Source: a candidate division FCPU426 bacterium | GTDB lineage: Bacteria > Oederibacteriota > Muellerivitia > Muellerivitales > DAHXKG01 | DNA length: 64,000 nucleotides | NCBI GenBank assembly: GCA_027366525.1 | Contig: DAHXKG010000001.1 | Span: forward strand, 62,001 to 126,000 | Direction of reading: 5' to 3' | Shown: in pieces, positions 58,035-62,186 of the stretch | Layout: each line of letters starts with the position of its first letter | Position numbering within the stretch: position 1 is the stretch's first letter | Program-made: the position numbers and the translations under genes | The notes under the pieces: generated by a model | The model's input: the letters and a program-made list of their open reading frames with translations, nothing else | Database searches by the model: none | Told to the model about the DNA's origin: nothing

Positions 58035-59294
58035 CTATAAATTAGCAATAATAGCTGAAGCAAATTCTGAGCATTTCACTTCTTTAGCATTTTCCATTAA
58101 GCGAGCAAAATCATATGTTACAATTTTTTGATCAATGACTTTTCCCAAGGCATCAAAAATCATTTTAGATACTTCTGCCCAGCCTAAATATTCAAACATC
58201 ATAACGCCGGATAAAATAACCGACCCAGGATTCACTTTATCAAGATTTGCGTACTTAGGGGCCGTCCCATGCGTTGCTTCAAAAATGGCATGACCGGTTA
58301 TATAATTAATATTGCCTCCAGGAGCAATCCCAATCCCTCCCACTTGAGCAGCTAACGCATCTGATAGATAATCACCATTCAAATTCAAAGTAGCAATAAC
58401 ATCAAATTCTTCTGGCCGTGTTAAAACTTGTTGAAGTGTAATATCCGCAATCGAATCTTTTACCAATATCTGACCCGCGGGTGGTTTTCCCTGACAATCA
58501 TCCCAACTAATGGCCTGACCTTTAAACTCCTTACGAACCAACTCATAACCCCAATCTCTGAATGCGCCCTCTGTAAACTTCATGATATTGCCTTTATGAA
58601 CAAAGGTAACACTTTTTCGCCGGTGAGAAATGGCAAATTCTATTGCCGCCCGAACTAATCGTTCCGTCCCTTGCTTTGACACAGGCTTAATTCCTATTCC
58701 AGATGTTTCTGGAAACCGAATTTTTTTGACGCCCATTTCCTCTTGTAACCATTGAATTATTTTTTTAGATTCCGCTGTTTGAGCAGCCCACTCAATCCCA
58801 GCATAAATATCTTCTGTATTTTCCCTAAAGATTATCATGTCAACCTTTTCTGGGTGTTTTACAGGTGACGGAACTCCTTGAAAATATCTCACGGGTCTAA
58901 CACATACATATAAATCCAAGATTTGTCTTAGAGCAACATTCAACGATCGTATGCCCTTGCCGATCGGAGTAGTCAAGGGCCCTTTAATTCCAACCAAATA
59001 ATCTCTAAAAGCAGTTATAGTGTCATCCGGTAGCCAATTGTTAAATTTCTGAAAAGCGGTTTCGCCAGCAAAAACTTCAAACCAACTTATTTTGCGTTTT
59101 CCTTGATATGCTTTAAGAACTGCTGCATCAAAAACTCTAACTGAGGCCCTCCAGATATCAGGGCCCGTTCCATCACCTTGGATAAATGGAATAATGGGAT
59201 TATCTGGAACTTTTAACTTTTGATCTTCGATAAAAACTTTTTCACCATTTGGTGGATTTACATTTTGATATTGAACGTGTTCCTTTACAGTCAC
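58035..59294 (-). CDS. icd: Isocitrate dehydrogenase, probably NADP-dependent
   Basis: Oxidative decarboxylation of isocitrate. Residues: [22 protein letters not shown] area (substrate Ser/Arg), [13 protein letters not shown], metal Asp in [14 protein letters not shown] and [20 protein letters not shown], the E. coli-type cofactor loop that supports NADP specificity. 419 residues. 115 bp upstream of the aconitase gene on the same strand. Confidence 0.94.
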
Positions 59295-59371
59295 AGAGCA
59301 TTCCTTTACTCATAAAATTTTATTCAGCCCTCATATTTTAAAACCGATACTTTCAGCCGTCAAGAGAAGTA

Positions 59372-60652
59372 CTAATTAATTATATATTGTTTGAATTCAA
59401 CCGATCGGAGATCATATTTTTTAATTTTTCTTTGCATAGTTTTTAAGCTCAATCCCGATAAATTTGCGGCTTGTCGAATATTCCCACGCACTTTCACTAA
59501 TATATTCACTAAATATTTTTTCTCCGTTTCAGAAATCATTTCCTCCCATTTATCTAATGGGACTTCTGCAATTGGAATTTCAAGATGCTCAATTTCTGAA
59601 CTTTGAGCTAAAAGGCACGCTCGTTCTATTTCAGCTTCCAATTCTCGTATATTTCCAGGCCAGGCATACATCATAAGCTGGCGGAAAGCATTCGCAGATA
59701 AACGTTCAGCTGGAGAACCGGTAAATGCTTTACATGTTTCAATAAAATGTTGTGCAAGTGATGGCAAATCTTGCCTTCTTTCACGAAGCGGCGGAAGATA
59801 CAACAAATGATGGTCAAAACATTTATATAATTTTTCGCTGATTTTGCCTGATTGAATCAGTGATTCTATTCGCTCTTGTGTGGATCCAATAATCCTAGGT
59901 GCATCTGCACCCATATGAGAAATTTTTTCACCCAATTGGTCTTGAATTTCCAAACTCAATCTTTGGATCTCATTTAACACCAATGTTCCGCTAGATATTT
60001 TATTCCAAACCCCATTACTTCCCAATAAACTCTCATAACAGCTTGAATGTTCTAAACAATTAAAAATCCTAAATGGATATTTTGCGCGTTTACTTCGTTC
60101 ATGTAGCGCTCTTGCTACCAATTTTTTCCCAGTCCCCTTTTCCCCCTGTATAAAAATTGGAACCATTTCATCAGCCCAATGAGCAATGTGTTCAAAAATT
60201 TGATTAAATCCATTATGTCTCGAAAACAATTTTCCAACTTGCTGTGGAATATTTAATGATTGAAATAAATATGTAACATCTTGAACAATCTCAACTACAT
60301 ATAAAGGCGATTCTTTCTCAAATTTAATCGGATAGATTAAACTTTCAAACTGGTGCGTTGTGCCGTTCACAACCATGGTAAAGTAATTAATCTGCTTCTC
60401 TTTTTTATCCAATACCTTTTTCTTAATACAAAAGAAGCAAGGACTATCAAATCCGAAGAACTCTTTATGACATAGTTTACCCCGCACTTGATTTAATTTT
60501 AAATTTAGTGGGGTTAATGCATGGGTATTAGCATAAATAATCTTAAAATTGGAATCAACCACCTTGATTGAATAAGGCATGGTTCCCAATATTGCTTGCA
60601 AAAATGAATTTTTTCGATACAGAGCCGGCGGCACCCATCGTCTTGGACTCAT
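59372..60652 (-). CDS. PAS/AAA+/Fis-type regulator with degenerate ATPase
   Basis: About 426 residues. N-terminal PAS domain contains LCHKEFFGFDSPCFFC (C-x10-C-x2-C), a pattern found in redox- or metal-sensing PAS domains. The AAA+ domain (150-350) looks like NtrC-type proteins but is altered: Walker A is GEKGTGKKLVARALH, Walker B reads LVLNEIQRLS (Asn for the usual Asp), and the GAFTGA sigma-54 loop is missing between LLGSNGVW and SSGTLVLNE. A Fis HTH (IRQAANLSGLSLKTMQRKIK) ends it. So it is unlikely to activate sigma-54; TyrR is a precedent for GAFTGA loss. ATG 60652 is preferred to TTG 60682, which sits in a hairpin loop. Confidence 0.85.
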   Translation of the reverse strand: MSPRRWVPPALYRKNSFLQAILGTMPYSIKVVDSNFKIIYANTHALTPLNLKLNQVRGKLCHKEFFGFDSPCFFCIKKKVLDKKEKQINYFTMVVNGTTHQFESLIYPIKFEKESPLYVVEIVQDVTYLFQSLNIPQQVGKLFSRHNGFNQIFEHIAHWADEMVPIFIQGEKGTGKKLVARALHERSKRAKYPFRIFNCLEHSSCYESLLGSNGVWNKISSGTLVLNEIQRLSLEIQDQLGEKISHMGADAPRIIGSTQERIESLIQSGKISEKLYKCFDHHLLYLPPLRERRQDLPSLAQHFIETCKAFTGSPAERLSANAFRQLMMYAWPGNIRELEAEIERACLLAQSSEIEHLEIPIAEVPLDKWEEMISETEKKYLVNILVKVRGNIRQAANLSGLSLKTMQRKIKKYDLRSVEFKQYIIN

Positions 60653-60663
60653 TGATTTATACC

Positions 60664-60700
60664 AAAGTAACGTTTGATCCAAAAAATCAAACGTTACTTT
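60664..60700 (-). repeat. 15-bp perfect inverted repeat with 7-base spacer
   Basis: AAAGTAACGTTTGAT and its exact complement flank CCAAAAA. It lies between the helical-protein gene (stop 60716) and the regulator's ATG 60652, and covers the alternative TTG start. No T-run follows on the minus strand. As RNA it would be a strong hairpin close to the start; as DNA a large operator, possibly for the regulator itself. Confidence 0.55.
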
Positions 60701-60715
60701 TCTTAATTGAGTTTT

Positions 60716-61372
60716 TTATTTAACTTCCGAAGACACATGACTTAACTCTCTAGTCGTCGCAAAATTCTCTGGAATAAAATGTTTCATTCTTTTCCTTATT
60801 TCCAGTAATTCTTTGCGAAGTAATATTAAAGTATCTGATAATTCTTGATCTTCACCAAATATTTCTAAACTGCGTTCCAATAACTTAAGTGCTTCTTGTT
60901 GAAAATGTGATTCATTTTTCAAGAAACCCTCCATACTTTGAAAGGATTCTACCAATTCGCTTGGAAATAATATTTCCACGGGAATTCCTGTTAACCCGTA
61001 AAGCGCTTTAATCAAAATCTGATAATGGCGTTGAGCTGTTCCTATTAACTGCCAAACACATTTCATTGATTCTTCATCCTCGGCTCCAATCGAAGATACC
61101 ACCGTCGTTAAATTTATAAGCCGTTGATAAAACAGTTGAACCAACTGAAATAAAATCGACGATTTTCTAAGCGTAATCTTACTGATATGTGTTTTGGTAT
61201 TGAGCAAATGTTTAATCTCTGTAATTCGAGATCCACATTGCTCTAAAAGCTCACGATTTGCCCGAGCATCCCGAGGACTAATTCGAAGTGCTTTTCCAGC
61301 CAAGTAATTGATATTTTGCTCAATGCGGTCAATATCCTCGGTTAGTTGAAAAAAAGAAAAATAAAAATTCAT
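60716..61372 (-). CDS. Unknown helical cytosolic protein
   Basis: About 218 residues from ATG 61372, chosen because AAGGAG stands six to seven bases upstream (the frame's first codon is a GTG at 61390). Mostly helical, charged, with Leu-rich segments (LVQLFYQRLINLTTVVSSIG, ALKLLERSLEIFGEDQELSD); no signal, no membrane segment. It lies directly upstream of the PAS/Fis regulator, in the same direction, so the two may work together (for example as a partner or modulator). No family recognised. Confidence 0.55.
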   Translation of the reverse strand: MNFYFSFFQLTEDIDRIEQNINYLAGKALRISPRDARANRELLEQCGSRITEIKHLLNTKTHISKITLRKSSILFQLVQLFYQRLINLTTVVSSIGAEDEESMKCVWQLIGTAQRHYQILIKALYGLTGIPVEILFPSELVESFQSMEGFLKNESHFQQEALKLLERSLEIFGEDQELSDTLILLRKELLEIRKRMKHFIPENFATTRELSHVSSEVK

Positions 61373-61733
61373 TTTCGTCTCCTTCTTCACTCTAACTAAT
61401 AATCTCTTAGAGCTTATTAAAATAAAAAAATAAAAAATGCTTAACAGCGACTATGACATTTTTATATGATCAAGATCACTATACAATTGTACTCAATAAT
61501 TTCAATCAAAAAATAAAAATGCCTTTTTAAACGATTTTTATGATGCTTTTTAAAAAAATATTAACAAATAAAGTCAATTATGTCCTTTATATGTCATTTT
61601 TTTTACTTTAATTAGACGATAGATGATGAATATCAGTTACATAATTAATAAAAAAATGTAGTTGTTTTCATAATCCATGTAGTGTTATAAATTGAAAAGT
61701 TTCTTTAAAAATCAAATCCGGTAGGAATGGTGT
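61373..61733. other. Divergent regulatory region of about 360 bp
   Basis: Between the helical-protein gene and bcp. It has a Crp/Fnr-type palindrome (61465-61480, listed separately), several poly-A/T runs and no recognisable gene or RNA. Confidence 0.5.
61465..61480. promoter_or_regulatory. Crp/Fnr-type binding site candidate
   Basis: TATGATCAAGATCACT contains TGAT-CAAG-ATCA, matching the core of the FNR consensus (TTGAT-N4-ATCAA) on both sides. It sits about 90 bp upstream of the helical-protein gene and 250 bp before bcp. It shares 14 of 16 positions with the site in front of the second Crp/Fnr gene (16931-16946). Confidence 0.5.
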
Positions 61734-62186
61734 ATGATCCAAGAAAACCAAATAGCGCCTGATTTTGCTTTACCTAATGAAAATGGAAAAATAATTTCCT
61801 TGAACGATTTTAAGGGAAAATTTGTCGTTTTGTATTTTTATCCCAAAGATATGACACCCGGCTGCACGCAAGAAGCTTGTGATTTTCGCGATCAGTGGAA
61901 TTTATTTCAAAAACTCAAAGTCCCTATTTTAGGAATCAGTGCAGATCCCATCGAGCGTCACCAAATTTTTCATCATAAATATGAACTTCCATTCCATCTA
62001 TTAGCTGACCCGGAAAAAAAAGTGTTAAAAGATTATGGAGTTTGGCAGAAGAAAATTTTATATGGAAGAAGTTTTATGGGAATTGTTCGAACCACGGTTA
62101 TTATTGACCCCAGCAGGAAAATAAAAAAGATTTTTTCAAAAGTGAAGGTAAAAGGACACGTGCATGATGTCTTAAATTCTCTTTAA
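61734..62186 (+). CDS. bcp: Thiol peroxidase of the Bcp/PrxQ family
   Basis: A 150-residue peroxiredoxin reducing H2O2 and organic hydroperoxides with thioredoxin. The peroxidatic and resolving cysteines are in TPGCTQEACDFRD (CX4C), with FVVLYFYPKDM upstream and LLADPEKKVLKDYGVW later. Cytosolic. The MFS transporter gene follows three bases after its stop. A redox-type Crp/Fnr site lies in the shared upstream region. Confidence 0.93.
   Translation: MIQENQIAPDFALPNENGKIISLNDFKGKFVVLYFYPKDMTPGCTQEACDFRDQWNLFQKLKVPILGISADPIERHQIFHHKYELPFHLLADPEKKVLKDYGVWQKKILYGRSFMGIVRTTVIIDPSRKIKKIFSKVKVKGHVHDVLNSL

Follow-up and report, generated by a model that had tools for sequence, protein, structure and literature searches.

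What is left for an enhancer-binding protein to do when the loops that reach sigma-54 are missing? The question is raised by an ORF on the minus strand at positions 59372-60652 of the window (the whole stretch of 64,000 nucleotides analysed here), which encodes a regulator of the order PAS - AAA+ - Fis-type HTH. A domain match alone commonly suffices for an enhancer-binding protein to be annotated as a sigma-54 activator, and in this case Pfam reports a sigma-54 interaction domain even though the whole order to which the host belongs has lost the contact loops. The host represents a little-known lineage of soil bacteria in the candidate phylum FCPU426, with an assembly of 2.02 Mb in 33 contigs; among the 5 of 265 papers listed by a non-exhaustive literature search on enhancer binding and sigma54, none mentions FCPU426.

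The reading favoured here, with a probability of roughly 0.6, is that of a lineage-specific atypical enhancer-binding protein which binds ATP, probably without hydrolysing it, and for which we infer a role as a local redox regulator of the sigma-70 type.

Gene and domain architecture

The ORF, the Pfam matches and the alignment of orthologues agree on a GAFTGA-less regulator. Its frame can alternatively open at a TTG (60682); the conserved start is the ATG at 60652 (MSPRR...), where the orthologues begin as well, which confirms the extent of the gene given by the first-pass annotation. All three domains are listed on the minus strand: a PAS domain with C71-x10-C82-x2-C85 at 60263..60613 (residues 24-140 of the TTG-numbered ORF), a degenerate AAA+ domain with its lid at 59567..60235 (approximately residues 150-372), and a Fis-type HTH at 59414..59530 (residues 385-423).

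The Pfam search returned PAS_9, Sigma54_activ_2 (75.8 bits), Sigma54_activat (65 bits), AAA_lid_14 and HTH_8, the last with 36.5 bits against a cut-off of 22, in agreement with the earlier proposal that the Fis HTH is kept. An NtrC-class AAA+ domain with a lid is thus present (PF00158, 65 bits; PF25601, 71.9 bits), and the protein matches ZraR at 5.5e-45. Since the full-length predicted model reached a mean pLDDT of 62.5 and a pTM of 0.37 only, the nucleotide pocket is described below from sequence and not from structure.

Full-length orthologues were found in all eight other genomes of the same order that were searched (44-48% identity). In 36 genomes from elsewhere in the phylum only weaker similarity was seen (best E 6e-34), most of it confined to the AAA+ domain. 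The nine members of the family form one clade in the AAA+ tree (support 100/99) on a long stem.

Loss of the sigma-54 contact loops

The alignment comprised the nine family members and, for comparison, 25 further regulators of the class, of which 4 come from the same genome and 21 from relatives. The G[AS][FY]TGA loop, the Walker B Asp-Glu pair and the sensor I Asn/His are each present in 24 of these 25, the exception being L004. All nine members of the family have a 12-column gap at the GAFTGA position (L1), and a displaced copy of the loop, sought elsewhere in the alignment, is absent from the regulator; the loop, reported missing in the first-pass annotation, has therefore been deleted and not displaced. 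About 10 residues have also been deleted before sensor I, in the L2 region, again in 9/9. Sequencing error or chance was ruled out as the origin of these deletions, as the eight orthologues share them. Excerpts of a study of the class (PMC7175178) describe both L1 and L2 as contacting sigma-54 and promoter DNA. Having both regions cut, the regulator should be unable to touch sigma-54.

The host encodes rpoN together with three canonical activators, which answers the check on rpoN proposed earlier and rules out a missing sigma factor as the cause of the loop loss. Matches to GG-N10-GC occur in the three intergenic regions of the locus, at no common position, so that no shared -24/-12 site was found there. 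That ATP-driven sigma-54 activation has been abandoned, as first suspected, is strongly supported by these sequence comparisons: both loops are cut in every member, and the window genome keeps rpoN and three canonical activators.

The same persistence might be taken to mean that the regulator still works with sigma-54, through another surface or as a regulatory subunit within the hexamers of the canonical activators. Such a role would suit the arginine fingers, the Arg being retained in 7/9 family members at each of the two positions, and R-finger residues act in the neighbouring subunit. However, the window protein carries Ser and Cys at these positions, and together with the loss of L1 and L2 throughout the family and the lack of a positionally conserved -24/-12 site this makes a remaining sigma-54 role quite unlikely.

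The exception named above, L004 (G000:C30:117521-118933; relatives L149-L156), is a second GAFTGA-less regulator, of the order REC - AAA+ - HTH, found in all nine genomes of the order. In the window genome its P-loop reads GEVGSHKK and its Walker B LNQV. In the seven readable relatives (the eighth is not covered) I, V or M stands in place of the P-loop lysine, and in most the Walker B Glu has given way to Gln.

The nucleotide-binding pocket

Retention of the P-loop, noted at the outset, extends to the whole family: GEKGTGKK, including the Walker A lysine, is invariant in 9/9. The lid motif WPGN.REL is kept as well. None of the nine members has the sensor I Asn/His, and the switch asparagine, read from the alignment by eye, is Asn in the window regulator and His or Gln in its eight relatives. 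The Walker B motif of the window protein reads GTLVLNEI, hence the replacement of Asp by Asn described earlier is correct for this protein. As a feature of the family it does not hold: the Asn is private to the window genome and the Asp is retained in 8/9, whereas the catalytic Glu has been lost in 7/9. The window protein carries Asn-Glu, L012 has Asp-Ser and six others have Asp-Gly; L011, with Asp-Glu, is the only member with a complete motif. What characterizes the family is the loss of the complete Asp-Glu pair (8/9), the Asn being a private detail of the window regulator, the most altered of the nine.

As the P-loop is invariant, ATP binding is probably kept. The loss of the pocket by different routes in two families, combined with this invariance, points to binding with no or poor hydrolysis; L011, with Asp and Glu intact, could hydrolyse ATP.

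It may be asked whether the AAA+ domain is now a purely structural spacer, with ATP binding and oligomerisation irrelevant and the regulator a simple PAS-HTH dimer. A spacer could be expected to lose Walker B, sensor I and the R-fingers as the window protein has done, but not to retain GEKGTGKK, the Walker B Asp (8/9) and the lid motif, and no domain is better conserved between the two families than the AAA+. Compared with two relatives, the window protein is 51-52% identical in the AAA+ domain, 38-41% in the PAS domain and 44-47% in the HTH. Seven pairs were tried for dN/dS, and the four with unsaturated dS gave 0.11-0.22 for the AAA+ domain, which is under purifying selection among the relatives; dS is saturated in the pairs that include the window, so these figures speak for the relatives and not for the window copy. 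A mere spacer thus seems unlikely.

Highly improbable is a decaying gene on its way out of a reduced, AT-rich genome. The genome size (2.02 Mb) and the degree of alteration of the window protein would agree with decay, yet the frame is open and of full length, all domains are present, the Cys triad and P-loop are invariant, and relatives that share the deletions show dN/dS well below 1 (the window pairs being saturated).

The Cys-PAS domain and the origin of the family

The PAS Cys motif noted in the first-pass annotation, C71-x10-C82-x2-C85, is invariant in 9/9 orthologues. When 145 genomes were searched with the PAS alignment, 65 gave matches, and 21 non-orthologous loci, many of which look like histidine kinases, were taken for comparison. 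Since 16 of these 21 share the exact C-x10-C-x2-C spacing (one more has a longer version), the motif represents a common PAS subtype and is no mark of the regulator. For a possible Fe-S or haem cofactor the sequence offers the three invariant Cys as its sole hint, and the Cys triad occurs in none of the 5 solved-structure alignments listed for PAS. We infer that the domain would sense a redox or metal signal, and the neighbours in the locus, a peroxiredoxin, a protein modelled as ferritin-like and isocitrate dehydrogenase, would fit a redox role.

The best PAS match outside the order (E 3e-27) belongs to a canonical activator of genome G107 (L147:7770-9134), which has the same architecture, C-x10-C-x2-C in its PAS domain, and 33% identity to L013 over nearly its full length. 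This protein possesses GAFTGA, the Walker B LDEI, the sensor I Asn and both Arg fingers, and its gene adjoins one for a DsbH-type thioredoxin-fold protein. Judged by architecture, the family is likely to descend from an ordinary PAS sigma-54 activator of this kind. Placement of the G107 activator as sister of the family was tried in the AAA+ tree and received no resolved support; in the same tree the second degenerate family (L004) forms a long branch.

The conserved locus

In all nine genomes the regulator lies together with a divergent bcp gene, a gene for a helical protein and icd, and the genes beyond differ. In the window these are the bcp-like peroxiredoxin (AhpC-TSA) gene at 61734..62186 on the plus strand, the gene of the 218-aa helical protein (MNFYFS...) at 60716..61372 on the minus strand, upstream of the regulator and co-oriented with it, and, downstream, icd at 58035..59294 (minus strand), coding for an NADP-dependent isocitrate dehydrogenase.

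The helical protein matched no Pfam family. Of the 45 genomes of the phylum that were searched, nine carry its gene, and these are exactly those of the order; four genomes have a second copy, with no such regulator within the neighbouring stretches examined. Residues 63-208 were modelled as a ferritin-like bundle. The predicted model (mean pLDDT 77.2) superimposes on 2qqy with Z 17.8 and an rmsd of 2.0 over 135 residues, and on ferritin, Dps and bacterioferritin chains with Z 16-18 at 2.0-5.7 A, the best Foldseek E being 0.013. In this model the protein resembles ferritins, and the structure comparison is compatible with other families as well. Ferritins typically display an E-x2-H iron-site motif and Dps proteins H-x11-H-x3-D; among the nine helical-protein sequences no shared E-x2-H was found, and the Dps pattern occurs in 0/9. 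The context of the locus leans towards redox or iron.

Several features of the region were recorded besides. Two stretches of the helical protein, RISPRDARANRELL and NKTHISKITLRK, are strikingly invariant across two families. Near bcp, seven relatives (L074, L075, L076, L077, L078, L079, L080) carry genes for a small 2Fe-2S ferredoxin and a DUF4149 membrane protein, neither of which was found in the examined stretch of the window genome. Between the helical-protein and regulator genes, a hairpin of 17 pairs (60664-60700, minus strand; z -5.4, 0/200 shuffles) overlaps the alternative TTG start of the regulator; it was rejected as a shared operon feature, none comparably significant being present in the eight relatives.

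Regulatory DNA and a proposed circuit

A candidate operator, the two-box element GTnnAAAnnTGAC ... GACAnnnnTGnC (approximate), is conserved between bcp and the operon at 61571..61606 (minus strand). It comprises 36 bases with two imperfect palindromic boxes, whose centres are 20 bp apart in 8/9 genomes and 31 bp apart in the ninth, hence one extra turn. A model built from eight locus sequences, the ninth (G001) being left out for its 11-base insertion, was searched against 18 genomes, nine of the order and nine selected from elsewhere in the phylum. Beyond the locus itself, the best matches had E 0.05 in the order and 0.03 in the other nine genomes, and therefore no regulon was drawn; the locus element of G001 itself scored E 0.75 only. 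The element could also be the bcp promoter or the site of another regulator.

A candidate sigma-70-type promoter of the operon, GAGTACAATTGTATAGTG, was matched by eye at 61477..61494 (minus strand) and reads GGTACAAGAGGTATAYTC in most relatives. A second candidate, TTGACG-N17-TAAAAT at 59335..59363 (minus strand), follows the regulator stop codon directly and would serve icd; its TTGAC is present in 8/9 and its TAAA in 9/9 genomes. As icd has this promoter-like sequence of its own and no copy of the two-box element upstream, its link to the regulator may be mere neighbourhood. The simplest circuit would act locally, on bcp and the operon, and could extend to icd only through an unrecognised site.

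Under the favoured reading of an ATP-binding regulator of the sigma-70 type, the N-terminal Cys-PAS domain would sense a redox, oxygen or metal signal. The AAA+ domain would bind ATP with little or no hydrolysis and no sigma-54 contact, acting as a nucleotide-dependent oligomerisation module, and the Fis-type HTH would bind the two boxes in the intergenic DNA that separates bcp from the operon. In this way the regulator may tune sigma-70-type transcription of the divergent pair.

A broader scenario is offered tentatively. On two or more occasions sigma-54 activators may have been converted into sigma-70-type regulators within the order, the Cys-PAS family freezing an ATP-bound oligomer by two routes (Asn for Asp; Gly or Ser for Glu) and the REC family losing the loop and, mostly, the P-loop lysine. 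The Cys-PAS regulator, the putative ferritin-fold protein and the peroxiredoxin would then constitute an undescribed redox module.

Comparison with known systems

Regulators of the NtrC class that lack GAFTGA and act at sigma-70 promoters are known; excerpts of PMC10274813 name NtrC of Caulobacter and of Rhodobacter capsulatus as well as VpsR of Vibrio cholerae, and state that R. capsulatus NtrC requires ATP binding and not hydrolysis. As described there, the two NtrC proteins share with the present regulator an NtrC-class AAA+ domain from which L1 is deleted, a retained DNA-binding end and ATP binding (in our case probable). They differ in having a phosphorylated REC domain in place of the Cys-PAS, whereas the present regulator is in addition cut at L2, has an incomplete Walker B and belongs to another phylum and locus. 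VpsR (7v2b) is alike as a GAFTGA-less regulator, but has another N-terminal domain and, according to the title of the 7v2b entry, binds c-di-GMP.

In domain order the regulator resembles enterobacterial TyrR, which combines PAS, AAA+ and HTH and in E. coli, according to excerpts of PMC6375630, is a sigma-70 regulator without the sigma-54 loop. TyrR responds to an amino-acid ligand, in contrast to the Cys-PAS found here. An assignment to TyrR was ruled out, as Pfam found no ACT domain in the regulator and the NCBIfam TyrR model scored 110.6 bits against a cut-off of 576. The G107 activator agrees in domain order, in the Cys motif and over nearly the full length; it differs in its intact GAFTGA, LDEI, sensor I Asn and Arg fingers and in its DsbH-type neighbour.

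The regulator represents a new family of the known GAFTGA-less class, set apart by its Cys-PAS, by deletions at both L1 and L2, by a pocket that was lost along different routes and by the conserved locus. It supplies natural Asp-to-Asn and Glu-to-Gly/Ser variants of the pocket beside an intact relative, by means of which the role of ATP in GAFTGA-less regulators becomes testable.
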